Assembly: GCA_017552985.1 (NCBI GenBank)
Contig: JAFZNO010000136.1
Span: 1 to 46,943, forward strand
From: Lachnospiraceae bacterium
Lineage (GTDB): Bacteria; Bacillota; Clostridia; Lachnospirales; Lachnospiraceae
Reading direction: 5' to 3'
DNA length: 46,943 bases
Each line of letters begins with the position of its first letter. Within the stretch, counting starts at the first letter, position 1. The position numbers and the translations under genes are program-made. The notes under the pieces were generated by a model that made no database searches, was not told where the DNA came from, and was given only the letters and a program-made list of their open reading frames with translations. Below, piece by piece: positions 5,088-22,820 of this stretch.

Positions 5088-5543
5088 TTATCCTTTACGT
5101 TTTCCCTTCACTACGCGCTTCACTGCGGCAAGGGGTTTCATGATGCCCATGCGGAATGGGCGAAGTACAAGCCATCCCCGCGACAGGATCACGTAGAGTA
5201 CGTTCCCTGAACCAAAGCTTTTTCCCTTCCGGATGAAGGTGACGACCATGCCGATAAAGGCCTCCCTCGGAAGCGGTCCCTCGACTTGCGTCTGGTTGTC
5301 TCCCACCATGTAAATGCCGTCCTTACGCACCTTCCACACGCGGTGAAGCACCAACATGCCGCTTGGCCGGCGATAAAGCCAGACCTGCCCGCGACGGATC
5401 CTTTCGGGATCCGTTTTTTTGATGACGACCTGATCCCGACCGGGAACCATCAAAGGATACATGCTGTACCCTTCCGGCGTGATCTGCACCAATTCTTTTT
5501 CATTGATCAGCTTCTCCAGATTTTGCACTGCCACGGTTTTCAT
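5088..5543 (-). CDS. S24/S26-like serine peptidase (signal-peptidase-like)
   Basis: Product of 151 residues from ATG 5543. The SPase-like core shows EGYSMYPLM with the nucleophile-type Ser27, then VLHRVW with His67 where bacterial SPase I has Lys, and MVGDNQTQVEG (GDN box). A Ser/His arrangement is that of ER-type and SipW-type signal peptidases. There is no N-terminal anchor; one hydrophobic stretch lies near residues 116-128, and the C-terminus is strongly basic (KRVVKGKRKG). The frame is open upstream to a TTG at 5600, which falls inside a perfect inverted repeat; ATG codons at 5558 and 5543 are both possible, and 5543 has GGGGAG close ahead. Beside a PqqD-kinase fusion and an ABC exporter lacking its own peptidase, it is the natural candidate to cut the leader of the 8808-9260 product; that is inference. 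Confidence 0.75.
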   Translation of the reverse strand: MKTVAVQNLEKLINEKELVQITPEGYSMYPLMVPGRDQVVIKKTDPERIRRGQVWLYRRPSGMLVLHRVWKVRKDGIYMVGDNQTQVEGPLPREAFIGMVVTFIRKGKSFGSGNVLYVILSRGWLVLRPFRMGIMKPLAAVKRVVKGKRKG

Positions 5544-5580
5544 ACTCCCCAAATGCATTTCCTGCGGTTTTCTATATAGA

Positions 5581-5613
5581 ATGATAGCATTTTTATCCAA
5601 AAAATGCTATCAT
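5581..5613. promoter_or_regulatory. Perfect 14-bp inverted repeat between divergent genes (operator candidate)
   Basis: ATGATAGCATTTTT (5581-5594) and AAAAATGCTATCAT (5600-5613) are exact inverted copies around a 5-base centre. The repeat lies between the S26-like peptidase (minus) and the PqqD-kinase fusion (plus), and overlaps -10-like hexamers on both strands (TATATA at 5573-5578 for minus, TATCAT at 5608-5613 for plus). An operator for one repressor or activator serving both genes fits better than a terminator. Confidence 0.55.
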
Positions 5614-5644
5614 GTTTTTATCAGCACAAAGGAGCCCAGTCAAT

Positions 5645-6859
5645 ATGAGTGACAGACCACGCGTAAAAAAGACAATCCATTGCTATGAAATAAACGGGAC
5701 TTACCATCTCCTGCCCATCGGACAGGGCATCATGGACCATGAAAAGGGCCTTGCCACCAATGAGGTGGGAAAGCTCATCTGGGAAACCTTGGCAAGCGGC
5801 GGCGACCGGGAGGAAGCCCTTCGCGTTTTGATGCGCGAATATGAGGCCACCGAGGAAGACCGTCCCATTTTGGAAGCCGACGTGAATGCTTTTCTGGGAA
5901 CGCTTCAGCAGCACGGTTTTTTTGAATCCGCGTGGCATGAACCTGAAAACGGAACGCCTGCGCGCAAGGTCAAGATCGGTCCCCTGACCATGGAGCTTCG
6001 CATCCCGGATGCTTTGTTTGAGCGTTATTATGTATCATTTTCCACTCTGGCAGATGCGCCATCGGCCGCCCAGCCTGATACAATTCCTTCCGTCACGGCA
6101 CGTACCTCTGCCACGACGGGCGCGGATCAAACAGTCACGTTCTGCGCGCACCACCCTCTGACAAAGCAAAACGGCCAGGTCCTCGTCCGCAATGAGGAAG
6201 TGCTGATCATGGAAACGGAGGATTCCTTCGTGATCCTGCCGCTTCTTGGCCGCTATGTCTATGAAATTAGCTGTGCAAAGGACGGCCGTGAGGCATTCGT
6301 TTACGGGACGAATGACGGAACCTCCCCCTGCATGGAAGAACTCTTTTCCGCCCTCCGTTTTCCGTTCTTGATCCTGGCACAGGCAAGAGGCCTTTGCGTC
6401 ATGCATTCCGCCTCCCTTCTTTATCAGGGTAAGGCCTGGCTTTTCTCCGGGCATTCTGGTGCCGGGAAATCCACCCACGTCCAGCTTTGGCAGGACACCT
6501 TTGGAACTCCTTGGATCAACGGCGACCTAAATCTTCTTGGCATAAAAGAAGGACAGGCCGTCTGTTACGGTCTGCCCTGGTGTGGCACCTCCGGCATCTC
6601 CACTCCGGGAGAATTCCCCTTAGGAGGCATTACGTTCTTAACACAAGCGCCTTATGACAAGGTATCCGGTCTCGCTTCCGATGCGCTGGCGCTCTCTCTC
6701 GCAAAACGAATGATCACGCCCAACTGGACGGCTTCCATGATGCAGCAAAACATTGATGCGGCAATCAGCTTAAGCAGTCTCATCCATGGCTTCCGCCTGG
6801 AGTGCACCAAGGATCCAAATGCCGCGCGGGTCATGAAGTCTGCGATCGATCAGATCTAG
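5645..6859 (+). CDS. PqqD-like domain fused to an HPr-kinase-like domain
   Basis: Product of 404 residues from ATG 5645, with AGGAG 10 bases ahead; the frame is open to 5612 but without a ribosome site. Residues 1-95 are PqqD-like (LLPIGQGIMDHEKG, then TNEVGKLIWETL, acidic helices and FLGTLQQHGFF), the fold that binds leader peptides as a RiPP recognition element. Residues 170-404 resemble HPr kinase/phosphorylase: MHSASLL (254-260), Walker A GHSGAGKST (269-277) and NGDLNLLG (292-299). HPr-kinase-like proteins beside PqqD proteins are known from exosortase-linked sets (HprK-related) and from lasso-peptide clusters, where one phosphorylates the precursor. Here both functions sit in one chain, suggesting a kinase that recognises its peptide substrate itself. 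The stop overlaps that of the convergent ABC gene. Confidence 0.85.
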   Translation: MSDRPRVKKTIHCYEINGTYHLLPIGQGIMDHEKGLATNEVGKLIWETLASGGDREEALRVLMREYEATEEDRPILEADVNAFLGTLQQHGFFESAWHEPENGTPARKVKIGPLTMELRIPDALFERYYVSFSTLADAPSAAQPDTIPSVTARTSATTGADQTVTFCAHHPLTKQNGQVLVRNEEVLIMETEDSFVILPLLGRYVYEISCAKDGREAFVYGTNDGTSPCMEELFSALRFPFLILAQARGLCVMHSASLLYQGKAWLFSGHSGAGKSTHVQLWQDTFGTPWINGDLNLLGIKEGQAVCYGLPWCGTSGISTPGEFPLGGITFLTQAPYDKVSGLASDALALSLAKRMITPNWTASMMQQNIDAAISLSSLIHGFRLECTKDPNAARVMKSAIDQI

Positions 6860-8628
6860 AAATTATCGATCATCTCTTTAATCTCAGCATCATTTAATAT
6901 CGTGCACTGCTTGTTGCGGATTGCGTAAACCCGCTTACACATGCTAAGCACCGTGGGCCTGTGCGTCGTGACAATGCAGGTCTTCGGACGGGCTCCGCCC
7001 ATAATGTTCCGAAGAACTTGTCTTTCCGTCATGACGTCCAGGGCGGAAGTTGCCTCATCCAACAAGAGGATCGGCGTATCCCTAAGCAGTGCCCTGGCAA
7101 TGGAAAGTCGCTGCGCCTGTCCCTCGGAAAATCCGCCGCCACGCTCCTTGATCTGGCTGTTGATCCCTTCCGGAAGCTTTTCCACAAAGCTCCATGCGCA
7201 TGCCTGCTTGAGTACTTCGATGATCTCTTCGTCCGTTGCGTCTTCCTTTACGTTGCGCATGTTCTGCGCGATGGTACCCGAAAACATGGTGTTCCCCTGC
7301 GGGACGTAAGAAAACAACTGTCTGGTTGCCGGAGAGAGGTTGAAGCCTCTCTTTTCTTTTTGTTCGCCTGCCCAGAAATAAGCCTCTCCGCCCTGTGCGG
7401 GTACCAGGGAAAGCAGCAGACGCATCATGGTCGTCTTTCCTTCTCCAGAAGGTCCCACAAGGCCAACGATCTCATGCGGTCTGGCCTCCATGGATGCATC
7501 CTTGAAAACCGCCGTGCCATTTTTATAGGCATAATCCAAATGATCGATGGTAAGTCCGATACCGCGATCCAGATGCTCTTCCAGGAATTTCTGGACCTCT
7601 TCCCGCTTTCCGTCGTCCTCTCTTGGCATCTCCACGATGTCCATCAGTCTTCCTGCGGAGGTGGTAAGCCCAATGGCTCCCGGTACAAGGGACGTGAGAT
7701 TGTGCAGCGTTCCCGTCAACGTGCCGGAAAGGCCCAGGAACATTGTCATGGTACCGTAATCAATGGCTCCGCTCCATACGCGGTAGATTCCCCATCCGTA
7801 TGCCGCATAGGAGATCAAAAGACCTACCGTGGACATCAGGATCGAAGTCCAGATGGACATTTTCTGGAAATCCAGCCGCATGCTGATGTAATCCTTTTGT
7901 AGTTGCTTTAACCGCTTTACGTACAGTCCGATCAGGTCAAACGCCTTGATCGTCTGGATGTTGGAAAATGCCTCCTGGTTAAAGCCTGACATCTTCGCTC
8001 CCATGGCTGCACTTCTTTGATTGTTGTTCACCATGCGGTTCATCAAGGTCTTTGACAGGATCAGGCTGACCGGCATTCCCATAAAGGCGAAAACGGCAAA
8101 GCTTACGTCATTCACGACCACGACTGCAAATGCGCTGATAAAACGAAACAAATAAACAATTGCATTGGGCACGAAATTCAAAACGCCGTTTGAAATGTTG
8201 GATGCGTCTGAGCTCCATCTCGTGAGCAGGTCGCCCGTATGATAATTGGACAGGGATTCCCAATCCGTGATCAGGATTTTTTCAAAAATGTCCGACTTGA
8301 TCTCCGCATCCACCCGCATGCCAACCCACGCGGAAATATAGGAAGTGATCTGATTCATGATCGTGCTTCCGATTCCAAGTCCAATCATGATGCAAAAGGT
8401 CTGTACCAGTTTTCCCGGCTGATGACCCGTGATGATGTTGACCAGATCCCTTGACGCGAAACCAAGACCCAGGGACACCAAAGTCCCCACCACGCCCATG
8501 GCAGTATATATGATCATGGCGAGCCAGTGTTTCTTTCCATATCCGTAGATCCATACGGTCTGACGCCACATTTCCTTCAGACGCCCTTCCTTGACCCGCT
8601 TCCAATAAAACGCAATTCGCTCTTTCAT
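6856..8628 (-). CDS. ABC exporter, fused permease and ATPase (no peptidase domain)
   Basis: Product of 590 residues from ATG 8628 (AAGGGA ahead); the frame continues to 8769 but the added codons are not family-like. Six membrane segments span about residues 30-330. The ATPase domain has Walker A GPSGEGKTT, the Q-loop in VPQGNTMFSG, signature FSEGQAQRLSIARALL and Walker B ILLLDEATSALD. The FSEGQ form of the signature is common in peptide and bacteriocin exporters. It lacks the N-terminal C39 peptidase of double-glycine exporters, so leader cleavage must be done by another protein. It lies directly downstream of the leader-bearing gene 8808-9260, the likely cargo. Confidence 0.85.
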   Translation of the reverse strand: MKERIAFYWKRVKEGRLKEMWRQTVWIYGYGKKHWLAMIIYTAMGVVGTLVSLGLGFASRDLVNIITGHQPGKLVQTFCIMIGLGIGSTIMNQITSYISAWVGMRVDAEIKSDIFEKILITDWESLSNYHTGDLLTRWSSDASNISNGVLNFVPNAIVYLFRFISAFAVVVVNDVSFAVFAFMGMPVSLILSKTLMNRMVNNNQRSAAMGAKMSGFNQEAFSNIQTIKAFDLIGLYVKRLKQLQKDYISMRLDFQKMSIWTSILMSTVGLLISYAAYGWGIYRVWSGAIDYGTMTMFLGLSGTLTGTLHNLTSLVPGAIGLTTSAGRLMDIVEMPREDDGKREEVQKFLEEHLDRGIGLTIDHLDYAYKNGTAVFKDASMEARPHEIVGLVGPSGEGKTTMMRLLLSLVPAQGGEAYFWAGEQKEKRGFNLSPATRQLFSYVPQGNTMFSGTIAQNMRNVKEDATDEEIIEVLKQACAWSFVEKLPEGINSQIKERGGGFSEGQAQRLSIARALLRDTPILLLDEATSALDVMTERQVLRNIMGGARPKTCIVTTHRPTVLSMCKRVYAIRNKQCTILNDAEIKEMIDNF

Positions 8629-8690
8629 CCCTTGTTCCCTTTGTGATCTCAAAATGCTTATCGAGCATAAACGTAACGCATTCTTGTTAT

Positions 8691-8720
8691 AAGAGTACCA
8701 TGATTCCATGCAGAATTCAA
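8691..8720 (-). promoter_or_regulatory. Possible separate promoter of the ABC exporter
   Basis: On the minus strand, TTGAAT (8720-8715), 18 bases, then TACTCT (8696-8691) preceded by TGG. A modest match, lying after the terminator-like hairpin of the cargo gene. Confidence 0.35.
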
Positions 8721-8740
8721 TTGTGAGCGGCGTAAAAAAG

Positions 8741-8778
8741 CAAAAAGAAAAGCATGGCTGCATTTGCAACCATGCTTT
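8741..8778 (-). terminator. Terminator or attenuator between cargo gene and ABC exporter
   Basis: On the minus strand, AAAGCATGG (8778-8770) pairs with CCATGCTTT (8757-8749) and is followed by TCTTTTTG. A second small hairpin (GACTAAG / CTTAGTC, 8794-8813) includes the cargo gene stop. Partial termination here would give more cargo than exporter. Confidence 0.7.
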
Positions 8779-8807
8779 GATATCAAATTTAGGGACTAAG
8801 CTTTTTC

Positions 8808-9260
8808 TTAGTCGATTCCACCCTGAACGTTTACGTCATGTCTGCAGGAAATGGTCAGGTTAGTAATGCTGATTGCTTCAGTCGTAGCCTGATCACCGGT
8901 GGAAGCCCATACCTTGAAGGTGTAGTTGTCACCAGACTTATAGGAATCTCCAAGGAGCTCACGCGTAACGATCATGGTGTTACCATTGATCACGTAAGGG
9001 AACTCAGCTCTGGAACCATTCTCGCTCAAAGGTGCGGAGAAGGTTACGGTAACAATGGTACAACCGGAAATATGCACGTAATCACTGCTGTGATCCGCAC
9101 GAAGCTCAAACACGTGAGAGTCTCCTGCCCACTTCTGCTCTCCATTTACTTTAATGGTCCAGCAATCGGAAGACCAGTTGCTTCCGTCACCACTTGCCAT
9201 ATATACGCTTTCTGCAATTTCATCATTTGCAACAATTACGGGCTTAACGTAATTTTTCAT
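8808..9260 (-). CDS. Small leader-bearing beta-rich protein, putative exported cargo
   Basis: Product of 150 residues with no enzyme motif. Residues 1-24 form a leader-like start: MKNYVKPVIV, then NDEIAESVYMASG ending in a small-residue patch. It is not a Sec signal (no hydrophobic core). The rest (about 126 residues) is rich in V, T, S, N and G with alternating hydrophobic residues, as in a secreted beta-sandwich or adhesin-like domain, and has three Cys (C33, C67, C138). I recall similar openings (YVKP, then AEGVYxASG) in other gut clostridial proteins, not checked. AGGAGG lies 13 bases ahead of ATG. It has its own promoter and terminator directly upstream of the ABC exporter gene. The likely fate is recognition by a PqqD domain, export and cleavage after the leader (inference). 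Confidence 0.75.
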   Translation of the reverse strand: MKNYVKPVIVANDEIAESVYMASGDGSNWSSDCWTIKVNGEQKWAGDSHVFELRADHSSDYVHISGCTIVTVTFSAPLSENGSRAEFPYVINGNTMIVTRELLGDSYKSGDNYTFKVWASTGDQATTEAISITNLTISCRHDVNVQGGID

Positions 9261-9345
9261 TTTCTCTTCTTTTCCTCCTGTATCAATCTACTATTTTTTT
9301 AGGTCTAATTCTAAGAAGATGTTCTTCTCCTTATCTCATGACATC

Positions 9346-9374
9346 ATCCTACCATAGCCCTTGGGAAACAGCAA
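9346..9374 (-). promoter_or_regulatory. Predicted promoter of the leader-bearing cargo gene
   Basis: On the minus strand, TTGCTG (9374-9369), a 17-base spacer and TAGGAT (9351-9346) preceded by TGG. A small palindrome, TAACA-N4-TGTTA (9381-9394), lies just upstream of the -35 and overlaps the kinase stop; it may be a regulator site. Confidence 0.55.
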
Positions 9375-9391
9375 GCATTCTAACAGATTTG

Positions 9392-10204
9392 TTACGAATC
9401 CCCCGCCAGCATTGGTATTTCTAGGAAGAACTGACTTCCCTTTTCGGGAACGCTCGTCACCCAAATAGTTCCCCCATGTTTTTCCATAATGCTCTTTGCT
9501 ATGGCAAGCCCCAGTCCGTGCCCGCCGTCCCCCGGCGTTCTGGACCTGTCTGCCCGGTAGGAACGCTCAAACACGTGGGGCAAGTCCTCCGGCAGGATTC
9601 CCACTCCCGTGTCGCTTACGCAGATGATCAGCTTTCCGTCACGCGCCTCGGCCGAAAGCGTGATCTCATCACCTGGCCTTGAATATCTTAAGGCATTGGT
9701 GAACAGATTGTCAAGCACTCTGACCATTTTCTCGGGGTCCACGCGGACCATGCAGGACAGGTCCTCCGGCAGACGCAAATCCAATCGTCTTTCCGCATAT
9801 TTCACGTCCGCGTCGCAGGAATAAAAGAATTCCTCCAGCATGGCCACGGCGTCTATGGTCTCCAGCTCCAGTCTCTGCTCCGGATTCTCCATCCTTCCGA
9901 GCAAAAAGATCTCATCCAGCATGGAATTCAGGCTTCGAAGACGCCTGCTCATGAGATTTAGGAGTTCCTGATACTCTTCCTCCTCCATGTCCTTCTTCTC
10001 GCGAAGGAGTCCAAGGGCACTGACTAGGGCCGTCATCGGCGCGCGAAGGTCGTGGGATAGATTCCGGAACAATTCCATGCGTTCCCGTTCCTGCTGGTTT
10101 AATTTTTCATTTGCCCGCGACAATTCCTCATTCGCCAGCAACAAGGCTTTCTCCAAGTCCTCCCTGGAAATTGTCTGCGGTTTTGTATATCGCTTTTTTT
10201 CCAT
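9392..10204 (-). CDS. Cytosolic sensor histidine kinase (no membrane segment)
   Basis: Product of 270 residues. A short coiled-coil-like start (about 12-45) leads into the H-box NLSHDLRAP with His51, the dimerisation helices, the N-box DNLFTNALRYS, G1 DTGVGI and G2 GHGLGLAIAKS. No transmembrane segment, PAS or HAMP domain is present, so it must sense a cytosolic signal or a partner protein. It follows the response regulator by 18 bases and is surely its partner. It would phosphorylate the regulator and may control the cargo promoter immediately downstream. Confidence 0.88.
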   Translation of the reverse strand: MEKKRYTKPQTISREDLEKALLLANEELSRANEKLNQQERERMELFRNLSHDLRAPMTALVSALGLLREKKDMEEEEYQELLNLMSRRLRSLNSMLDEIFLLGRMENPEQRLELETIDAVAMLEEFFYSCDADVKYAERRLDLRLPEDLSCMVRVDPEKMVRVLDNLFTNALRYSRPGDEITLSAEARDGKLIICVSDTGVGILPEDLPHVFERSYRADRSRTPGDGGHGLGLAIAKSIMEKHGGTIWVTSVPEKGSQFFLEIPMLAGDS

Positions 10205-10222
10205 GCTCCGTGCTTCCTTCCG

Positions 10223-10900
10223 TCATCCCTTAAAGCAATACCCTTTCCCCCACACGGTCTCGATCATGTTTTCCAGACCGACAAAGCCTTCCATCTTTTT
10301 TCTCAGTCTGCTGGCATTCATCATAATGTTCCTGCGGTCAGCATCAATGTAGCCTCCCAGGAGCTCCTTGCCGATCTCCTCAAAGGTCATGACCTTGCGG
10401 TTATTGCGCGCCAGACATACCAAGAGCTCGTATTCCTTATTGGACAACAGGATCTCTTCACCGCTGCAGAACACGCGGTGATTTAAGAGCTCTATGCGAA
10501 GGGGCGGGAACTCCAGAATGCCCGTCTGTCCGGTGACGCCGCGGTATCTGGTGATGTGTACCTGAATGCGCAGGGACAGTTCTTCCAGACTGCAGGGCTT
10601 CACGATATAATCCACGGCCCCGGTGACAAGGCCCTGAATGCGGTCTGCCTCCTCCGTTCTGCCCGTCAGGAACAATACTGGCACCTGAGTGATCATCCGG
10701 ATCTGCTTCATGGCTTCAAAACCATCCATGCCAGGCATCATCACGTCGAGGACAATGCAGTGCGGCATAAATTCAGGCAACATGCCAATTGCCTCCTGCG
10801 CCGACTGCGCCGTTTTCACCTGATATCCCTTTCCCCTTAAGAATTCACCATTGACGTAAAGAACTTCGCTGTCATCATCCACCAACAAGATTCGGTCCAT
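10223..10900 (-). CDS. OmpR/PhoB-family response regulator
   Basis: Product of 225 residues from ATG 10900, with GGAGG 8 bases ahead; a TTG at 10918 overlapping the preceding stop is the alternative. The receiver domain shows VDDD (7-10), phospho-acceptor Asp52 in VLDVMMPG, the switch Thr in LFLTGR and Lys in VKPCS. The C-terminal winged helix holds LSNKEYELL, RRNIMMNASRLRKKM and the wing end TVWGKGYCF. It pairs with the kinase downstream and lies at the tail of the polysaccharide operon, behind a PqqD gene. Targets are unknown; the cargo gene promoter is nearest. Confidence 0.9.
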   Translation of the reverse strand: MDRILLVDDDSEVLYVNGEFLRGKGYQVKTAQSAQEAIGMLPEFMPHCIVLDVMMPGMDGFEAMKQIRMITQVPVLFLTGRTEEADRIQGLVTGAVDYIVKPCSLEELSLRIQVHITRYRGVTGQTGILEFPPLRIELLNHRVFCSGEEILLSNKEYELLVCLARNNRKVMTFEEIGKELLGGYIDADRRNIMMNASRLRKKMEGFVGLENMIETVWGKGYCFKG

Positions 10901-10914
10901 TTTTTGACCCTCCG

Positions 10915-11184
10915 TCAATCATTAACCAAAACACCCATTTTATCCAGTTGCTCCAAGAACTCTTCCACGTCCGCAAGGATCATTTGCTCTTCTTCCTGCT
11001 CCGCTTCATATTCCTGGCAAAGCTTTTTGTGAAGCTCATCCTTGGACAATCCCTCAAGGATCCCTTCCCAGAGAAGGGCTCCCGTCTCGTTCAAGGCAAA
11101 CACAATGCCCTGCTTCTCCCCGCGGCGTGCCACGACGTAATGCTCTCCGATCTTTCTCAGTTCATAACTATCTTTGATCTTCAC
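10915..11184 (-). CDS. Stand-alone PqqD-like peptide-binding protein
   Basis: Product of 89 residues, GTG start at 11184 with AGGTGA ahead. It has the PqqD pattern: a beta strand (ELRKIGEHYVVARR), the central LNETGALLWEGI motif, then helices with acidic residues ending in FLEQLDKMGVLV. PqqD proteins bind precursor leaders and present them to modifying enzymes. This is one of three PqqD domains in the window (others at 5645-6859 and 30257-30520). It sits between the nucleotidyltransferase fusion gene and the response regulator, with gaps of 14-18 bases. Confidence 0.85.
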   Translation of the reverse strand: MKIKDSYELRKIGEHYVVARRGEKQGIVFALNETGALLWEGILEGLSKDELHKKLCQEYEAEQEEEQMILADVEEFLEQLDKMGVLVND

Positions 11185-11202: not shown

Positions 11203-13518
11203 TTATTTAAATAATCTCATCTCTTCGACAACGCCCGCGCGTTCTCCCGCACTCTTTAGAATGCTGCGAAGGCTCCCGCGTCCAAGCTTTTTGTTATTCC
11301 GGAGGAACGTAACAAAGGTCTTGTACCAAAGCCACGGCCACTTCCAGACATGCTTGCTCTCCTTTGCGTGGTTCATCTTCATCTGATAGTGGAATTCCTT
11401 CGCATAACCCAGGATGCTGCGGTTCCGGAGCGCCACCATGCGGTTCTTGTCCGCCTTTCCGAATTCCTCCGCGCTGATCACTTCCATCAGGAACTGTTCG
11501 ACGTAACCTTTCGAAAATTCCGCTTCCAAACCATTTCCGTAGATATGGTTTTTGGTAAGACCCAGATACTTTTCACAGATCAGCGTTACCGCCTTAGCAA
11601 AGCCCGTGACGCCGCATTCCTCTGCCAGTTTACAAAAACGGGCCGCAGCTTCTTCATCATCCACCTGATTCCAGAATACCACCCAATCCGCCAAAAGCTT
11701 TAATCCAAAGCCGGCACGAAGAAAATGCTGGAGCATGTGAAGAAGGAGTTCCAATGCCTGCAACGGTTCGGAGGTTGTCGGTATGGACAAGCCCATGACC
11801 TCGGTCTCCCCCGCTTCCTCCAGATAGGTGGGAAGAAGTTCTTCCATTCTCTCGTTGATCCGCTCATCGTCAAAGGGCTCCGCAAGCATGGCGTGAAGCT
11901 CCACGTCGATCTCTTCCTTGCCCTGATAGACCAAGTGATGATTCGCATGCTGTTCTTCCTTCAGCTCGTAATGCATGGCCTCCAAGATCTTTCCAGCCGC
12001 CTGCGCGTCCTCCACGCTTTTGAACAGGAGGTCCACGTCACCTGACTTACGATATTCCGGCACGGGATAATAAGCTGCCACGCCACACCCCTTCAGCGCA
12101 ACCACGGGCACGTTCTTCGCCCGGATGGCTTCCGTTAGCTCCTTCGTCAAAAACAGAAGCCGGTAGCTTTGTTTTACAACGCTTTCCGTCGCCGGGCGCG
12201 CCGACTCCAAAACCCTTGGATCTTTTTCTTCAAAGAGCTCCTCCAGCACGTCCCACAGCATGGGCAGGACCTTGTGCTCCCGGGCTATGGAAATCACTTC
12301 CTCGATATTTACCCGCTCCAGAAGCTCCTTTTCCCGCCGTGAGGCTTCCTCACCCGTCAAGGCCCTTCTAAGTAGCAGGCACAGGCATTCAGCCTCTTTG
12401 GAGACAACGTTAGCCGCAGCGGCCTTCTTTCTTTTCCACCGGGACTGCTTCTCCGCCCGGTTTCTTTTCTCCGTAATCCGCCCGTCAATGTTCAAGGCCC
12501 TAAGAAGAACAATTCCCAGCGTGAACAGGAAATATCCATGCATGGAAAACAGCATGGACGCCACCCGGATCACAAATCTCCACGGCAGGCAGTGAAGTTG
12601 CTTTATGTACGCTCCTCCCGCCAATTCCCGGAATCTCTTTCTCACGAAAAGATTCCTTCCGTAATCCCGAAGCGCCGCCTTCGCCTTCCAGATGCCGTTC
12701 TTTGCCATGAGCTCTTGTTTCACCAGGAAAAAGCTGCCAAAGAAGACGTGAAACGCCGTAATGTCCTGATAGTGATCCTCGAGCCCTCTGTCCTCCAACT
12801 CCAGATGAAAATCCTCAGCGATGGCGACCCATATCTCGCTGAAATCCGGCTTATACTGAAACGTAACGGATTCATCGTGAACCCTGTATAAATACACGCT
12901 TTCGTCGATAAAGGAGTATTTCGGCCGGCATGCATAGCAAAGAATGTTGAACGCCTTATCCTGGGTATAGGGGTAATCCATGCTCCACACTTCATTTTCC
13001 AGCAGGAATTCCCTCCGGTAAAGCTTGCCCCAGTTATATGCCAGATGTCCGAAGCGATAAAATCCGTCAAAGCGGAAATCTTCCGTGTCAGGATCATCCT
13101 CCTTTTCCAGATGGTGCCGGTTCACGTCCCAGATGATTCCGTCCATGAATTTCCGGTAGTTACCCACGATCACGTCAGCGCCGCTTCGCATCGCTTCCTC
13201 AGCAAGATTGGCAATGGCCTCCGGCCCGTCCAGACAATCGTCGGAGTCCATCATAAAGACGTACTCGCCCTGCGCCTCCAGAACGCCGGTATTTCGCGCA
13301 ATGCCCTGCCCCTGGTTTTCCTGATGGATTGCGATCACCCGCTCGTATTTCTGCGCATAAAAGTCAACAATCTCCGGGCAACGGTCCGGCGAGCCGTCGT
13401 CCACCAGAATGATCTCCGTTGCGGGATAATGCTGGGTGAGCGCGCTCTGCACGCACTGAGCCAAATATTTTTCAGTTTTATAGACTGGAATTATGATGGA
13501 TACCAGCATCTCACTCAT
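11203..13518 (-). CDS. GT2 glycosyltransferase fused to a nucleotidyltransferase-like domain
   Basis: Product of 771 residues. Residues 1-330 are a family-2 glycosyltransferase: VSIIIPVYKTEKYL, VDDGSPD, NTGVLEAQGEYVFMMDSDD with the DxD-type acidic cluster near 91-94. A hydrophobic stretch and a basic linker (about 310-365) follow. Residues 370-740 look like the uncharacterised nucleotidyltransferase family PF14907: ALKGCG (474-479), then SGDVDLLF (492-499) with the metal-binding DxD, and a third acidic residue in IDVELH. This family occurs with PqqD and HPr-kinase-like genes in lasso-peptide and exosortase-linked sets. The fusion ties polymer synthesis to the peptide-modifying set. Next gene is PqqD, 18 bases on. 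Confidence 0.85.
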   Translation of the reverse strand: MSEMLVSIIIPVYKTEKYLAQCVQSALTQHYPATEIILVDDGSPDRCPEIVDFYAQKYERVIAIHQENQGQGIARNTGVLEAQGEYVFMMDSDDCLDGPEAIANLAEEAMRSGADVIVGNYRKFMDGIIWDVNRHHLEKEDDPDTEDFRFDGFYRFGHLAYNWGKLYRREFLLENEVWSMDYPYTQDKAFNILCYACRPKYSFIDESVYLYRVHDESVTFQYKPDFSEIWVAIAEDFHLELEDRGLEDHYQDITAFHVFFGSFFLVKQELMAKNGIWKAKAALRDYGRNLFVRKRFRELAGGAYIKQLHCLPWRFVIRVASMLFSMHGYFLFTLGIVLLRALNIDGRITEKRNRAEKQSRWKRKKAAAANVVSKEAECLCLLLRRALTGEEASRREKELLERVNIEEVISIAREHKVLPMLWDVLEELFEEKDPRVLESARPATESVVKQSYRLLFLTKELTEAIRAKNVPVVALKGCGVAAYYPVPEYRKSGDVDLLFKSVEDAQAAGKILEAMHYELKEEQHANHHLVYQGKEEIDVELHAMLAEPFDDERINERMEELLPTYLEEAGETEVMGLSIPTTSEPLQALELLLHMLQHFLRAGFGLKLLADWVVFWNQVDDEEAAARFCKLAEECGVTGFAKAVTLICEKYLGLTKNHIYGNGLEAEFSKGYVEQFLMEVISAEEFGKADKNRMVALRNRSILGYAKEFHYQMKMNHAKESKHVWKWPWLWYKTFVTFLRNNKKLGRGSLRSILKSAGERAGVVEEMRLFK

Positions 13519-13552: not shown

Positions 13553-15073
13553 TCACTCCCGTTTCAAGTATTTCTCCAAAAAGCGGAGGGACGCCTGAAA
13601 ACGGGCACTTCTAAAATACAAAAGAAGGTTAATGCCTGACGGCAACGCAACGCAAAGCATGACCGCCAGCATAAAACTTAAAATGGAAAAGCCCTGACAG
13701 ATCTTTCCCGTCAGGAACGCGCATAGCAGTGCCTCTCCTACGGACAGTACCACGTATTGGGCCATCTGCAGCACATAGCTTCCCATGGATTTTTCCATGT
13801 AAAAATGATAAAAGGCAAACGATTTTCCAAGAAACAAGATCACGTAAGCCACAAGCGTTCCAAGAAGCACGCCGTCGAGTCCCATGGGCCGGACCAATGC
13901 CAGCGAAATGACCAGATTCACTATGGCTGCCGTCATTGCGACCCGCTTCTCCGGCTGGAAAAGACCGCCCGCGCTGACGAACGTGCCAACCGGCAAGACC
14001 AGTACGTAAAGCAGGCAATTGAAGGCGATCAGCATCACCGTCACGCCCGGGAGCACAAACTCTTCACTCAGCCAGATCTCTCCGACAAAGAGTGAAGCCA
14101 ATGCCGTCACGCCGCTCAGAATAACGGCGCCAAGCAGAAAATAAACAAACGTAAAGGTCTGCAGCAGATCCCCGTCACGCTTTTTGTCCCCTTCCACGAT
14201 CAGGTTTCCAACCGTGGGCTGCAGCGCGCCGGACAGCGCCTGCATGACGTTGATCAGAGACTGGGTGATCAGGCAGTAATTGGAGTAAAATCCCACGACG
14301 CTCAAGCTGATAAAGCTCGACGTGATCAAATTATCCGTGCAGCCAAGGAGCTTTTGCGCGATCCTCGTGACAAAGAGGTTCCTTACGTCTGCAAACACGG
14401 AACTCACAAGCCCCCGATCCACCTTTTCCTTACGGTATTTTTTCAAGTACGGCCAGGTCTTGTCCACGTAGACCGCCAGGCCCAGATTCACAATGGCCTC
14501 GAACGTGATGCCAATTCCCAAGGCCCACTCGTAATTTCCCCAGATCATGACGATCACGATCACGGAAACGTAATTCAGGATCGAGACCGCCATGGTCGCG
14601 AGGCTCACTACATATTCCCGCTGATCCGCGATCACAATGGATCGCTTGTAGGATAACAGATATCCCAGGATCGTCTTTACCAGCCACAGTCCGTAGATCA
14701 AACGGACGTAGGACAGGGAGAAATGATTTTCCCGCAAAAACAAATGCACAAAGGGCAGAAAGGAAAAGCCCAGAATTGCGATCGCGCCGGCTACGGCATA
14801 ATAGGCCCTGCGGTACAGGTTCATCAGTGCGGCTTGCTTTTTCTCCGCTCCTTCCGCCATCGCCCGGTATAAGTGAAACACAATGGCAGTCGACAAGCCC
14901 AGTTCCGTGACGGAAAAGATGGCGATCACGTTGGACGCAACCCCGTTTAAGCCCACCAGCTCCGTGCCAAGCTTTAGATTTATGACTCTCTGGCTAAAAA
15001 AACCGGCCAGAATGATCAGCGCCTGCGCAAATACGCTGACAAAACTGTTTTTCCCTATGTTTTTAGCACGCAT
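13553..15073 (-). CDS. Wzx/MATE-like polysaccharide flippase
   Basis: Product of 506 residues with about 12-14 predicted membrane segments over its whole length and short polar loops. The beginning, FVSVFAQALIILAGFFSQRVINLKLG read in parts, fits oligosaccharide flippases of the MOP superfamily, which move lipid-linked sugar units across the membrane. ATG 15073 has GGAG 10 bases ahead, inside the end of the preceding glycosyltransferase gene. It is the second MOP-type protein of the locus besides PelG, suggesting that two kinds of glycan or two export steps are encoded. Confidence 0.85.
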   Translation of the reverse strand: MRAKNIGKNSFVSVFAQALIILAGFFSQRVINLKLGTELVGLNGVASNVIAIFSVTELGLSTAIVFHLYRAMAEGAEKKQAALMNLYRRAYYAVAGAIAILGFSFLPFVHLFLRENHFSLSYVRLIYGLWLVKTILGYLLSYKRSIVIADQREYVVSLATMAVSILNYVSVIVIVMIWGNYEWALGIGITFEAIVNLGLAVYVDKTWPYLKKYRKEKVDRGLVSSVFADVRNLFVTRIAQKLLGCTDNLITSSFISLSVVGFYSNYCLITQSLINVMQALSGALQPTVGNLIVEGDKKRDGDLLQTFTFVYFLLGAVILSGVTALASLFVGEIWLSEEFVLPGVTVMLIAFNCLLYVLVLPVGTFVSAGGLFQPEKRVAMTAAIVNLVISLALVRPMGLDGVLLGTLVAYVILFLGKSFAFYHFYMEKSMGSYVLQMAQYVVLSVGEALLCAFLTGKICQGFSILSFMLAVMLCVALPSGINLLLYFRSARFQASLRFLEKYLKRE

Positions 15074-15080
15074 CTAAGCA

Positions 15081-16166
15081 TCACTCCAAAAGCTGTCCTA
15101 GCAAGGCATTCCACTGCTCCATGACCTTCGGCAACAGGAACGGTCTTATGCCTTCCGGCGCTTTTTCCGCCATTTCCGTAAGCAAATCATCGTCTTCCAT
15201 GAGCAGCAAGAGCTTTTCCGCCATGGATTCGCAGTCAAACGGCTCGATGAGCCATCCGTTTACGCCGTCATGAATGATATCTGACGGTCCCGTAGGCACG
15301 TCAAAACTCACCGCCGGCAAACCGCAGGCCCCGGCTTCCAAAAGGCACATGGGAAAGCCTTCTGCCCTGGACGTCAGCACAAAGATCTTTGCCTGCGTCA
15401 GATACTCTTCCACCTTGGGGACGTATCCGACCAGTTCCAGTTGCCCCTGCAAGCCTTCCTTTTCGCGGAATGCTTCCAGCGCGGCCCTCTCTGGCCCTTC
15501 ACCGCAAAGGATCCACTTCCAGTTCCTGCGTTTCGAAAGGACCATCTTTGCCACCTGCATCAGCAGGTCATATCCCTTTTCCGGGACAAGCCTTGCGGCG
15601 GTGATCAGCCAGTTTTGCCGCTCACGCCTTGCCACGTCAGCCATCGTGGCAGGATTCGCAATGGCAACGATCCGGTCCTGTCTTCCAAAATGCTTTTGAA
15701 ACGCCTTCGCGTCTCCCGGCGTCAGCGTGACAATGGCATCCGTCTTTTTCGTAAAATGATTAAGAATGATCCTGCGATACCATCCTTCAGACAATTCAAA
15801 CGCACAGTTTGAATGCTCCCAGGAAATGACCTTGACGTTTAATCCCTTCGCCGCAGGCACGGAGAGGACGTCCAACACGATGTCTATGTCTATGATCAGA
15901 TCGATCTGCCGTTCTTTCAAAAACCTTCGCAGCTTCGGGATCAGCGGAAGGTAGGCCGGGCCCGGCGTCAGCCACTTCTTGCCGAGCGCGTGGCGGGACA
16001 CGTTCGAAGCGATCTCGTAGCAGGGCACTTCCTTTTGCTCCACAAGACTTAAAAAGCAAACCTCCGTCTCCGGTTCCTTCGCAAGTTCATTCGCTATGGT
16101 GACAGCGACGCGTTCCGTACCGCCGTTTCTTGTCACGTCTCCTGAAAAAAAACAGATTCTTTTCAA
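15081..16166 (-). CDS. GT4-family glycosyltransferase
   Basis: Product of 361 residues with the GT-B fold pattern: N-terminal GDVTRNGGTERVA, a second Rossmann domain beginning near LITAARLVPEKGYDLL, and the EX7E motif in AEGFPMCLLEAG followed by GLPAVSFDVPTGP. It transfers a sugar from a nucleotide donor with retention. The start codon is TTG at 16166, supported by GGGAGG 7 bases ahead. It follows the DUF4832-like gene by 15 bases and precedes the flippase by 7. Confidence 0.88.
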   Translation of the reverse strand: MKRICFFSGDVTRNGGTERVAVTIANELAKEPETEVCFLSLVEQKEVPCYEIASNVSRHALGKKWLTPGPAYLPLIPKLRRFLKERQIDLIIDIDIVLDVLSVPAAKGLNVKVISWEHSNCAFELSEGWYRRIILNHFTKKTDAIVTLTPGDAKAFQKHFGRQDRIVAIANPATMADVARRERQNWLITAARLVPEKGYDLLMQVAKMVLSKRRNWKWILCGEGPERAALEAFREKEGLQGQLELVGYVPKVEEYLTQAKIFVLTSRAEGFPMCLLEAGACGLPAVSFDVPTGPSDIIHDGVNGWLIEPFDCESMAEKLLLLMEDDDLLTEMAEKAPEGIRPFLLPKVMEQWNALLGQLLE

Positions 16167-16181
16167 GGCGAACCTCCCAAG

Positions 16182-17453
16182 TCATTTTATCGTGCCCAAC
16201 AATAAGTATCCGTCCTGGCTCTCCCTTGCGAAAGAGATCACCTTCCCGTCTCTTCTGCGAAGGATCCTGACGTAGAGGAAAAGTTCTTCCCCTTTTTCAA
16301 GTCCAGCGGTGCCTTCCCTCAAAAACGTGCCGCGAAGCTCCATTTGTGACCCAGACGGCATTCCCCGAAGGTTTCCCTCGAGCTTTCCCAGCTTTTCAAA
16401 ACCGGAAGTCTGTCCGTTCCGCTTTGCGAACACCCAGGCGTCTGCATCGTCATATAGCGTTCCAAATCCCTGATTGTCGATCTTAATCGTGATCCTCAAG
16501 TCATCTTTTTTGACCTTACAGTCCGCTTTCCGCAGGTCAAAACAGTATCCCAAACGGCGGCCAACGTAATCATATAAGCTCTGTCCGCCGTAGGGCATCT
16601 CTTTCCACTTCGTCAACAGCGCGACGTCATGGGTGGAATTCAAATAGCACGTGCCAAGGCGCCTTAGTTCCCCCGCAACCTGCTCCGCCGATAACGGGAC
16701 GGTGGCATCGATCACCTCCCCGCCGTACGGCACCTGCGCCGTGAAAGGCATCATAAAACGCGCCTCTTCCTCCGGGCTCCAGGCTTCCTTCCAGGTCGTT
16801 CTTCCGGCCGTTTCCGGTCCAAAGGTCCCAAGGTGTGAAGGCGACCCCAAAAGACCATCGTTGAAGAAACCTGTCATGCCTCGTTCCTCGCCCTCCGCAA
16901 AGGCCAGGCGCCACTGAACGGGCTTTCTTATGGCAAGCCGTATTTTCCCTTCCGTCTCGCGCAGAAACAATTCCATAAGTTCCCTTAGGCACTGCTCGCT
17001 CAAGAACTTAGAGTCATGCATCTCTCCCCAGCTCCCGATCAGCAGCCCCTGATAAACGTAAATGGAAGCTGCATGCTTTTTCAGAAGCGGTGCGATCTGC
17101 GTTACGTGTTTTTTGACGTGCGAAAAAAGGGAGGGCTCCCTGACCATCCCTTTTCCTTCCGTGTCGTAACATATTCTAAGGATCAGGTCAAAGCCTAATT
17201 GTTCAAAGCGTTGCAGGATCCCGTCCATTCTGTCAAGGGCCTGGGACGACAGATCCTCATCCTTGTACGCGCCCACGTTAAATAAAACTAACGCCAGGCT
17301 TTCTCCCGCATACCGGACCGGATCTTCCCACGTTTCCTCCTCCAGGCGGTAGGTATAGATGCGGTACCAGCCTCTCCCCGGATTATCCGCGGGATCCACG
17401 GATTTTGCAGAATCTGCGGGCGTGAACTTCGGTCCCTTAATAAAAGATAACAT
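16182..17453 (-). CDS. DUF4874/DUF4832-like protein (glycoside-hydrolase-like barrel)
   Basis: Product of 423 residues. The opening NPGRGWYRIYTY, a first domain with LVLFNVGAYKD and LILRICYDTEG, the middle QGLLIGSWGEMHDSKF and a later beta-rich part (about 310-420) resemble the DUF4874 plus DUF4832 pair, a TIM-barrel and beta-sandwich family often annotated near polysaccharide genes. Members are usually secreted, but no signal peptide is seen here, so it may act in the cytosol or leave by another route. ATG 17453 has AGAGGG ahead and overlaps the preceding gene by 17 bases. Activity is unknown. Confidence 0.7.
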   Translation of the reverse strand: MLSFIKGPKFTPADSAKSVDPADNPGRGWYRIYTYRLEEETWEDPVRYAGESLALVLFNVGAYKDEDLSSQALDRMDGILQRFEQLGFDLILRICYDTEGKGMVREPSLFSHVKKHVTQIAPLLKKHAASIYVYQGLLIGSWGEMHDSKFLSEQCLRELMELFLRETEGKIRLAIRKPVQWRLAFAEGEERGMTGFFNDGLLGSPSHLGTFGPETAGRTTWKEAWSPEEEARFMMPFTAQVPYGGEVIDATVPLSAEQVAGELRRLGTCYLNSTHDVALLTKWKEMPYGGQSLYDYVGRRLGYCFDLRKADCKVKKDDLRITIKIDNQGFGTLYDDADAWVFAKRNGQTSGFEKLGKLEGNLRGMPSGSQMELRGTFLREGTAGLEKGEELFLYVRILRRRDGKVISFARESQDGYLLLGTIK

Positions 17454-18222
17454 CCCTCTTCTCTCCTGCTTTCTTTTGCAAGATCTTGATGCGGAACACG
17501 ATGGCCAAAATGGAGAAGATCATGCGGATCATGTATAGGATTGGCTTAAAGCCGGAATGCATGCTTTCCCCGCCAACGCGATTGTGCATGACCGCAGGCA
17601 TCTCTTCCACGCGGTATCCCACGAGAAGCATCAAAATGATCATGTTGGCGTCCGGGTAACGGTCATCAAACCGGCCGTACTTTGAGTAATACAGCACGGC
17701 ACGGTTGCTGAGGCCCTGCAGGCCCGTGGTAGGATCTGCAATTCTTCTTCCCGTGAACAACTTGATCAAAAAACGAAAGATCATAAACGCAAACTGCTTT
17801 GCAGCGGAAACTTCAAATTCACTGCTTCCGTCCATAAAGCGCGATCCCAATACGATGTCGGGGTACTTTCCCTCCCGGTTCGGCGTCTTCAGTCTGTCAT
17901 ACAGCTTCACCACGTTACAGGCGTCATGCTGTCCGTCCGCGTCCATCTGGATCACGTACTTATACTTTCGCCGTATGGCATATTTATAGCCAAGCTGGAT
18001 CGTGCTCCCGTATCCCAGGTTAAAGATATTGGAGATCAGCGTAAATCCCGCATTTTTCACTATTCTGTTTGTTGCGTCGGAGGATGCGTCATTAATGACC
18101 AATACGTCCGCGATGTCCATGATCTCGGGCGTCTTTAACTCCTTCAACACAGCCAGTATGTTTTGCTCTTCATTATACGCCGGTATAATGATCAGCAAGT
18201 CCTTAGGCTTTGAATTCTGCAT
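17437..18222 (-). CDS. GT2-family glycosyltransferase, DPM1-like
   Basis: Product of 261 residues: LLIIIPAYNEEQNI, VINDASSD and the metal site MDADGQHD (about 93-100) of family 2. SRFMDGSS and DPTTGLQGLSNRA fit the dolichyl/polyprenyl-phosphate sugar synthase branch. A hydrophobic C-terminal stretch (about 225-248) could anchor it. A DUF2304 membrane protein is encoded two genes upstream; these two families are often neighbours. ATG 18222 follows the previous stop by one base. Confidence 0.88.
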   Translation of the reverse strand: MQNSKPKDLLIIIPAYNEEQNILAVLKELKTPEIMDIADVLVINDASSDATNRIVKNAGFTLISNIFNLGYGSTIQLGYKYAIRRKYKYVIQMDADGQHDACNVVKLYDRLKTPNREGKYPDIVLGSRFMDGSSEFEVSAAKQFAFMIFRFLIKLFTGRRIADPTTGLQGLSNRAVLYYSKYGRFDDRYPDANMIILMLLVGYRVEEMPAVMHNRVGGESMHSGFKPILYMIRMIFSILAIVFRIKILQKKAGEKRDVIFY

Positions 18223-18223
18223 T

Positions 18224-19438
18224 TTATTCCCTCGATGACGTTAAACTAAACAGTCCTTCCAAATCTTTTTCGTAGGAGAACTTGCGTTTTGCCGCATTCT
18301 CCCCAAGGCGCCTTGCCTTCTCAGGATCATTCAGTAGTTCCTGAATGGCCTTAGCAAGCGCCTCCGGTTTTTGTGCGATGACGAGGCCGTCCACCCCGTC
18401 CTCCACCTGTTGTCTGTTACTTATTATATCGGACGTTATGATGGGACAGGCAAGGGTTTGCGCCTCTTGGATCGCAATGCTTTTCCCCTCATAAGCCGTA
18501 GCATGCACGTAAAGGTCAGCCTGAGCGTAATACGGATACGGATTTCCCACCGCGCCCAGCAAAATAAAATCCTTTTCCAGACCGAGCTGACGGATCTTTT
18601 GTTCCAGGCGGCCTCGCTCGTCGCCCTCCCCCAGCACGTACCATCTTGCCTTTACGCCCGCGTCCTTCAGAAGCTTCATGGCGTCAATGGCCGTCGGAAA
18701 TGCTTTTTGCTTTGTCAGCCTCGCCACCGTAAGGATCCTGGCACCGTCATACTCATCGGTGAATCCCCCCGGAAGCATTGCCTTCTCGCGGATGACTTCC
18801 TGATTTACGATATTGTGGAACGTGGAGGTCTTTCCCTCACATTCCGGGTACGCTTCCAAAAAGCTTTTTTGCGTCTCCTCGGAAATTGGGAATATGTGAT
18901 CCATCTTTAGGAAACAATCCTTGTCCAGCTTTCTGTCATATCCGGACATTCCATAGTCCACGTGAATGAATGCCGCCTTCTTCTTCGCATTTACGTGATC
19001 TGCAACGTAATACGAGGAACCGCCTTCAATGTAGGCAACGGCCAGATCATACTCCTTGGAGAACCTCGGCGCTCCGTCCGAAAGGACGCGCCAACAAAGC
19101 TTATCCACCTTCAGTCCTCCCCGCCCCAGCATGCGGAACGCGCTGGAGACAAGATACGGGAACAGGCGGAACATGGTTCCCCTGCTGATGAGCGCCCGGC
19201 AGACCGTGAAAAACATCCGCACGCGCCCGCGCCCCGTCAGGACGGATTCTCTGGAAAAGCGTTTGTTAAGAAGCGTAACGTGTCTCGGAACAAGATCCAC
19301 AAGCTCTCCCTGTTCCAGGATTACGTATAAGTCCACCTTCCACTCAGGGCCAAAGAAACAAGGGAGAAGCTCCAGTAATGCCGTCTCCGCGCCGGCCCTG
19401 CTCAAAGTATTGATCACAAACAAGATGTTTTTAGGCAT
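18224..19438 (-). CDS. GT4-family glycosyltransferase
   Basis: Product of 404 residues with the GT-B layout. It starts NILFVINTLSRAGAETALLEL, has a second domain with ILTVARLTKQKAF and VLGEGDERGRLE, and the EX7E-type stretch AYEGKSIAIQEAQTLACPII. ATG 19438 has GGAG ahead and overlaps the DUF2304 gene by 8 bases. Sugar donor and acceptor are not evident. Confidence 0.88.
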   Translation of the reverse strand: MPKNILFVINTLSRAGAETALLELLPCFFGPEWKVDLYVILEQGELVDLVPRHVTLLNKRFSRESVLTGRGRVRMFFTVCRALISRGTMFRLFPYLVSSAFRMLGRGGLKVDKLCWRVLSDGAPRFSKEYDLAVAYIEGGSSYYVADHVNAKKKAAFIHVDYGMSGYDRKLDKDCFLKMDHIFPISEETQKSFLEAYPECEGKTSTFHNIVNQEVIREKAMLPGGFTDEYDGARILTVARLTKQKAFPTAIDAMKLLKDAGVKARWYVLGEGDERGRLEQKIRQLGLEKDFILLGAVGNPYPYYAQADLYVHATAYEGKSIAIQEAQTLACPIITSDIISNRQQVEDGVDGLVIAQKPEALAKAIQELLNDPEKARRLGENAAKRKFSYEKDLEGLFSLTSSRE

Positions 19439-19823
19439 CTTTCTCCGACTCCTTCAGTTTGTTGATCTGTTGCAACATACTGTCATTTTCCTGGTTCAAA
19501 AGTGCAACCTGCATGGCCAGCTCCCTCACCTTCATCATCAGTTCGGAAACCATACTGCTGACGACGAAGATCAAGATCAGTAAGAGCGCGCAGACCGTGG
19601 AAAGCACGGCCACGACCAGCCCCGAACTGTATCCGTTGACGATCAGGACGATGCCCAGCACAAGGACGATTATGGAGATCACAAACCAGATCAGCATAAA
19701 TCCGTCGCTCATCTTCTTCCGGGCATACCTCAAAAACGCAATGACGAACATAAGCGTTGAAACGCCCACCATTACGAGTCCAAGATAAAACCATACGTCC
19801 ACGATCGCGTCAAACCATTTCAT
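19431..19823 (-). CDS. DUF2304-like small membrane protein
   Basis: Product of 130 residues from ATG 19823; a GTG at 19835 is the alternative but lies inside the AGAGGTGA ribosome site. Three hydrophobic segments (about 8-29, 42-62, 66-88) are followed by a C-terminal coiled coil rich in E, Q, N and L. This is the layout of DUF2304 proteins next to polyprenyl-phosphate glycosyltransferases, where they may assist membrane placement of the enzyme or lipid sugar flipping. Function is not established. Confidence 0.78.
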   Translation of the reverse strand: MKWFDAIVDVWFYLGLVMVGVSTLMFVIAFLRYARKKMSDGFMLIWFVISIIVLVLGIVLIVNGYSSGLVVAVLSTVCALLLILIFVVSSMVSELMMKVRELAMQVALLNQENDSMLQQINKLKESEKDA

Positions 19824-19848
19824 CTGAAGTATCACCTCTCAATGCGTA

Positions 19849-21330: not shown

Positions 21331-21372
21331 TCTCTTTTCCTTTCCAGGTGATCAACATCCCGCCGCAGGCGC

Positions 21373-22797: not shown

Positions 22798-22820
22798 ATT
22801 GTCTCCATTCCCAACGGTTA

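Follow-up and report, generated by a model that had tools for sequence, protein, structure and literature searches.

The window analyzed here is a stretch of 46,943 nucleotides from a Lachnospiraceae bacterium (GenBank assembly GCA_017552985.1, contig JAFZNO010000136.1), and our subject is a set of eight genes within it, hereafter the kit, centered on a small protein with a distinctive leader. Reading down the minus strand from position 13518, the kit comprises a GT2 glycosyltransferase fused to an NTP_transf_5 domain (11203–13518), a discrete PqqD-type RiPP recognition element (RRE; RiPP, ribosomally synthesized and post-translationally modified peptide) (10915–11184), and an OmpR/PhoB-type response regulator (10223–10918) whose gene overlaps that of the RRE by four bases, all three assigned by domain matches; then a soluble histidine kinase with HisKA and HATPase domains and an N-terminal, leader-like YTKP motif (9392–10204), the leader protein itself (8808–9260), a strong terminator-like hairpin (8749–8778), and an ABC exporter with ABC_membrane and ABC_tran domains and an FSEGQ signature (6856–8769). 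A fusion of an RRE (PqqD) to an HPrK-like kinase is encoded on the plus strand (5612–6859) and converges on the exporter. The gene for an S26/SipW-type leader peptidase (5088–5600, minus strand) diverges from the fusion across a 14-bp inverted repeat (5581–5613) with identical arms, ATGATAGCATTTTT, a candidate operator or terminator; the other three matches to these arms in the window carry two mismatches each. The glycosyltransferase–NTP_transf_5 fusion belongs to the kit, and lies beyond the span that an earlier, sequence-only reading of this DNA had taken in; that reading likewise makes no mention of the leader-like motif of the histidine kinase.

Several of these genes have apparent counterparts among those for the Linear Polyphosphorylated Peptides (LPP), reported in May 2026 (Popov et al., Nat Commun, PMC13381572). 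The main text of that report describes Bacilli capsule loci holding a signal peptidase I (SpI), an RRE, an HprK-like kinase, an NTP transferase, and an MsbA-like exporter, with the genes lppA-K-B-S-D-N in Paenibacillus alginolyticus, and precursors of 35–200 residues whose N-terminus is constant and whose C-terminus is variable. Ser3 of the core is polyphosphorylated in a kinase-dependent manner; Tyr and Pro of the leader contact the RRE; and the leader is cut, in an RRE-dependent reaction, by the SpI with its Ser/His/Asp triad. Removal of the NTP transferase in the test host produced no detected change, and the authors deem the enzyme inactive there (PMC13381572).

Conservation of the gene set

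A protein search with the leader protein covered 61 genomes (its own and 60 relatives) and recovered it in 14. A profile built from 17 aligned leaders matched 63 of 138 species-genomes in a single genus, with up to four matches per genome, and 24 of 397 genomes drawn from the family (E 0.001); matches in genomes drawn from the order (10 of 294 at E 0.01) all fall in the same family, one of them weak (E 0.0096). We annotated 93 regions with profiles from the first relatives, comprising 92 around leader matches (13 + 20 + 59) and the window. The exporter is found in 78 of them, and within the stretch these 78 also hold a leader open reading frame (ORF) in 77 cases, the fusion in 71, the peptidase in 68, and NTP_transf_5 in 56, contig ends explaining some of the missing parts; leader and exporter are at most 330 bases apart in 72 of 77.

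These regions were selected via the leader, and a search in the reverse direction, with the fusion, was added for the 138 genus genomes. Kinase matches occur in 69, in four of which there is a stand-alone kinase only; the leader is present in 62 of the remaining 65, a few of these 65 being split across contig ends. Leader and fusion thereby occur together in 62 genomes, the leader alone in one (G001, with no fusion match), and the fusion alone in three (Fisher p 2e-34). Two of these three (G708 and G032) have a variant leader beside the exporter, and the third (G012) stops at a contig edge. None of the 63 leader genomes lacks the peptidase, which five other genomes of the genus set also have. 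The gene set is a real unit, not a chance cluster. The sequence-only reading had set linkage in related genomes beforehand as one of its tests, and the linkage held; the genes that it named (the PqqD–HPrK fusion, S26-like peptidase, C39-free exporter, leader protein, membrane-free histidine kinase, regulator, and PqqD) are all present.

Residues of the active sites and of the RRE are conserved. In the fusion, a Pfam PqqD domain at residues 41–103 (E 7e-10) precedes a kinase domain with the P-loop GHSGAGKST, and an alignment of 70 fusion ORFs of over 360 aa keeps the P-loop Lys, the NGD Asp, and His265 in 70/70 each. At the positions taken as equivalent to LppB N33, D70, and F74, assigned from motif and spacing rather than from an alignment with LppB, the fused RRE has Asn, Asp, and Phe, each in 67/70. 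The peptidase does not reach the curated cut-off of its best model, TIGR02228 (archaeal-type SpI), or that of sod_Ni_protease; its Ser46, His86, and Asp101 are invariant in the 19 aligned sequences. The [GS]Dx[DEH] motif of NTP_transf_5 is present in 56 of 57 ORFs, and the Pfam scan recovers no C39 domain in the exporter. At several other loci (L017, L023, L027, and others), NTP_transf_5 shares one ORF with a flippase-like protein, and at L144 (1841 onward) with an S26 peptidase. Some gene starts in the window differ from the ORF limits: the peptidase probably begins internally, at 5558 or 5543 (by eye), the fusion likely at 5645 (MSDRPRV), and the exporter likely at 8628, because homology begins near residue 48, giving a likely coding part of 6856–8628.

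Leaders, cargos, and the regulatory module

The leader protein, whose ATG is preceded by AGGAGG, is a 150-aa protein consisting of a 24-aa leader, MKNYVKPVIVANDEIAESVYMASG, and a beta-rich cargo. The whole protein has no Pfam or NCBIfam match at E 0.1, and the leader region has no strongly hydrophobic stretch; a search of the leader peptide against the PDB gave no match. Leaders across the set run to 22–24 residues with the consensus YxKPxVLxNEELAEGVYxASG, and [YW]xxPx[LVIFA] stands near the start in 117 of 122. The junction with the cargo is also conserved: a pattern of V/I/F/M at −4 and Y/F/M/L/V at −3, followed by Ser and Gly, fits 120 of 123 sequences (the 122 and one typed variant), and among these 120, counting from the Ser, Glu is at −6 in 119, Val/Ile at −4 in 119, Tyr/Phe at −3 in 119, and Ala/Gly/Ser at −1 in 118. 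The misses are L113, which is probably not a member, and L166 and L167, which read VYMTGSG and keep the SG. The small residue two positions past the aromatic fits the Fx[T/A] cut of LPP, by which analogy the leader is probably cut between residues 22 and 23; cuts after ASG or after VYA are possible alternatives.

What follows the leader is far more varied. When the 122 proteins are divided at the leader, their cargos form 15 clusters (BLAST E 1e-4) of 74, 17, 9, 4, 3, 3, 3, and 2 members and seven singletons, one of which is L113; single linkage at a loose E 1e-2 gives nine clusters (95, 17, 3, 2, and five singletons), so that some of the 15 may be distant kin. Two or more leader proteins occur in 24 loci, and in 29 same-locus pairs from different cargo clusters the leaders are on average 75% identical (46–96%) and the cargos 20% (15–26%), against 19% for shuffled cargos. 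One leader on such unlike cargos is, as judged from these sequences, the mark of a targeting signal. A terminator-like hairpin follows within 110 nt of 84 of 121 leader genes, compared with 12 of 200 random stretches from the same loci.

The cargo in the window belongs to the largest cluster, whose family profile yields no convincing relative (in the PDB a single row at E 0.24, in Pfam two rows near 0.005, each for a single member). Its single-sequence structure model has a mean predicted local distance difference test score of 57, and a fold search with this model places CBM86 and CBM2 (xylan- and cellulose-binding) among the first rows, at E 0.0096 or worse and with none at 0.001, which is at most a hint. 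The nine-member cluster is better placed: CBM_2 is matched in 9/9 at E 0.01, one member scoring 25 against a curated cut-off of 24, and a PDB search places cellulose-binding domains first (E 0.002). Cysteines are abundant in the 17-member cluster (15 of 17 aligned), which has no Pfam match and two PDB rows at E 0.33 or worse.

The histidine kinase, with a peak 19-residue hydropathy of 0.99, accompanies the exporter at 14 of 78 loci, or at 15 when a lower threshold admits L164. We infer two-component control of the kit from the pair of kinase and regulator, which is optional and present at a minority of loci. All 15 histidine kinases at system loci (190 bits or more) have [YF]xxP near the N-terminus, 14 as YxKP and one as FNSP, three of the 15 ORFs being counted from an internal start; when the 24 HisKA matches of the window's genome are read from their earliest possible starts, the kinase at 9392–10204 is the sole one to have it. 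This reflects conservation among homologous kinases rather than 15 independent events, and a kinase homolog on a Butyrivibrio plasmid (38% identical) carries YDAPSL. The leader profile matches these N-termini weakly (−2.5 to 5.2 bits for whole proteins; 0.7 for the best of 23 other kinases), and the scores of the 45-residue N-termini are reached by 0 to 46 of 3000 shuffles, 2192 of which gave a score. Because the profile match is weak, the likeness to a leader is carried by the YxxP motif alone. The discrete RRE (45 bits or more) is found at 12 of 13 regulator-bearing loci and at 0 of 65 other exporter loci, with weaker ORFs at L099, L101, L105, and L109, and a regular expression for the RRE residue pattern fits 11 of 12 discrete RREs. 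Together, the YxxP motif and this distribution suggest, as a lead, that the discrete RRE may dock on the histidine kinase and that the module may sense precursor supply.

Proposed function and alternatives

We consider the kit likely to be a protein-sized version of the one for LPP, in which leader-tagged proteins are phosphorylated, exported, and relieved of their leaders. By analogy with LPP, we infer that the fused RRE domain would bind the YxxP part of the leader and present the protein to the HPrK-like kinase, which would phosphorylate a serine near the leader/core junction, Ser23 of ...A-S-G being the best candidate. Cleavage by the S26 peptidase would fall at Yx[A/G/S/T], probably following residue 22; the small protein, rich in beta structure or in cysteine, would leave through the exporter, one machine handling several substrates. 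The order of cutting and export is a guess, as are two further steps: that NTP_transf_5, which shares one protein with a glycosyltransferase in the window and with a flippase-like protein at other loci, would add a sugar to the phosphate, and that the exported protein would work in or on an exopolysaccharide made by the adjoining genes. The latter, a Pel-type cluster, lie upstream of the kit on the minus strand (13553–24671) and encode a flippase-like protein (assigned by eye, with no Pfam match), GT4, DUF4874/DUF4832, GT2, GT4, PelG, PelF (above its curated cut-off), and DUF2194. Kinase and NTP_transf_5 together suggest, as an unproven lead, that a phospho-sugar may join protein to polysaccharide.

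Several observations weigh against this interpretation. The kit is known here from sequence alone, and its relation to LppA, LppB, LppS, and LppK is drawn from the gene set, the leader motif, and the residue pattern. A search of the discrete RRE against the PDB returned the paeninodin-type RRE 9x90, weakly (E 0.009), and LppB (9x8z) was not listed up to E 1 in a copy that may not hold that entry. The spacing Px12[YF]x[AGST] characterizes 116 of 122 leaders and the Px9Fx[T/A] of LPP none of them, and therefore neither cut site nor phospho-site is simply transferable. Two genomes with the fusion, the exporter, and a variant leader (G708 and G032) have no peptidase match; NTP_transf_5 was not seen at 22 of 78 exporter loci, some of these at contig ends; and 13 leader ORFs have no exporter nearby, nine of them (by hand count) in genomes that hold the kit elsewhere, with a 14th, L028, at a contig end.

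A more ambitious version of the same idea is a general phospho-linked glycoprotein pathway that senses its own supply, which we hold to be possible but rather unlikely. Carbohydrate-binding cargo would be phosphorylated at the junction serine, and a sugar or polysaccharide would then be joined to the phosphate by NTP_transf_5 and the glycosyltransferase or flippase fused to it, the protein leaving the cell as an anchor for a Pel-like matrix. At loci with the histidine kinase, regulator, and RRE, the YxKP of the kinase would hold the discrete RRE and free precursor would compete for it, reporting unexported substrate.

Plain leader-directed secretion, less probable again, would make the kinase domain a regulatory or ATP-driven presentation module, with cargo never phosphorylated but only exported and trimmed. 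The cargo families are unlike one another and, by eye, share no residue past the leader beyond SG, as this would predict; against it, all 70 aligned kinases keep the catalytic motifs unchanged, the junction Ser is kept, and the homologous LppK does phosphorylate, unphosphorylated LppA being cut poorly (PMC13381572). Secretion of a bacteriocin-like antimicrobial or signaling protein, with the two-component pair as quorum sensor, would suit the terminator-like hairpin after the precursor gene and the small Cys-rich cargos that do occur, and the precursor/exporter/kinase/regulator arrangement resembles that of bacteriocin loci. We think this improbable, however: the histidine kinase lacks a membrane sensor domain and is absent from most exporter loci, no immunity-type gene is evident by eye, one cargo family is CBM_2-like, and many loci adjoin polysaccharide genes. 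Surface anchoring of the exosortase/HPr-rel-A kind, suggested by an HPrK-like kinase, PqqD, and a nucleotidyltransferase near polysaccharide genes, has very little probability: the scores are 12.3 bits for HprK_rel_A, where the cut-off is 200, and 20.2 for PqqD_rel_X, where it is 35, which excludes membership, and no sorting tag or sortase was seen by eye.

If phosphorylation, export, and cleavage proceed as proposed, RiPP tailoring kits, mostly viewed as makers of short peptides, would have a counterpart of the same kind attached to small protein domains. The LPP family, whose role is not known, would gain a question, namely whether its chemistry joins proteins to extracellular polysaccharide. 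Binding of the sensor kinase's leader-like motif by an RRE would be an unusual coupling of secretion load to transcription, and the set of leader, peptidase, and exporter could become a tag-based secretion tool.

Comparison with known systems

C39 double-glycine exporters (peptidase-containing ABC transporters, PCAT) also combine leader-directed ABC export with a small residue at the cut; the exporter of the kit differs in having no C39 domain, a separate serine peptidase standing beside it. Closer is a set on plasmid pNP243 of Butyrivibrio fibrisolvens D1 (NZ_CP146964.1), whose aligned parts are 41% (S26 peptidase), 36% (kinase), 40% (exporter), 47% (response regulator), and 38% (histidine kinase) identical to those of the kit, and which has a 57-aa ORF, likely the precursor, with YVKP...EGVYA. 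There, however, kinase and PqqD are separate genes, the core is short, lasso genes lie alongside, and the exporter is annotated in two pieces.

Two loci of the same genus as the window, L260 (4154–12425) and L261 (6619–15148), hold unfused kits with an HprK-like kinase, PqqD, S26 peptidase, and a distant exporter, and are a further relative of the kit; both have a radical-SAM-like protein by eye (CNMSCDMC in L260), and L260 a precursor-like 139-aa ORF, MGEFIMKKLYVKPMM.... The window's own genome has two further partial kits (L253 and L254, contigs 134 and 122), one with a stand-alone kinase, a 370-aa protein, and PqqD, the other with PqqD, S26, glycosyltransferases, and a weak NTP_transf_5 match. 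A scan with the exporter alignment, using patterns that include the generic DEATSALD, listed 80 mostly unrelated exporters, among which only L176 and L179 match other models of the kit. The genes of L179 (Christensenella sp. UBA3792) follow the order K-B-S-D (kinase, PqqD, S26, exporter), the kinase being unfused; no precursor was recognized on its short contig.

Kinase/nucleotidyltransferase lasso peptides (paeninodin, pseudomycoidin) share with the kit a PqqD/RRE, an HPrK-like kinase, a nucleotidyltransferase, and an ABC exporter; for pseudomycoidin, a review has the kinase phosphorylate a serine and the nucleotidyltransferase add one or two hexoses to the phosphate (PMC8498205). The kit has a protein-sized core instead, and neither a macrolactam synthase (Asn-synthase-like) nor a B2 protease is present among its eight proteins or the ten next genes. 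It is not a lasso peptide system. The sequence-only reading took the system to be undescribed and of no known RiPP class, which the LPP report, with the same gene set, contradicts; its chain of recognition, phosphorylation, export, and cutting agrees with the LPP experiments (PMC13381572), and its interpretation as a whole is partly supported.

Like LPP loci, the kit places in one polysaccharide locus an S26/SipW-type peptidase with a Ser/His/Asp triad (LppS-like), an RRE, an HprK-like kinase, an NTP transferase (LppN-like), and an MsbA-like exporter, together with one to three precursors that combine a YxxP leader with a variable C-terminus. The main text of the LPP report (supplements aside) contains no occurrence of "Lachnospir-" (PMC13381572). 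The two differ in several ways: the principal RRE forms one protein with the kinase, where LPP has a discrete RRE, a discrete one also occurring in the window and at 12 of 13 regulator-bearing loci; the leader, with ...EGVYAASG, spaces Pro and aromatic three residues further apart than the Px9Fx[T/A] and FETxxS leaders of LPP; the cores are protein-sized and fall into several families, among them a CBM_2-like one; substrates can also lie apart from the kit; and a module of histidine kinase, regulator, and RRE is optional. From these sequence comparisons, the kit is probably a divergent LPP-like variant. Its kind is thus already known, as LPP; what is new here is the RRE–kinase fusion, the longer leader spacing, and the protein-sized cores.

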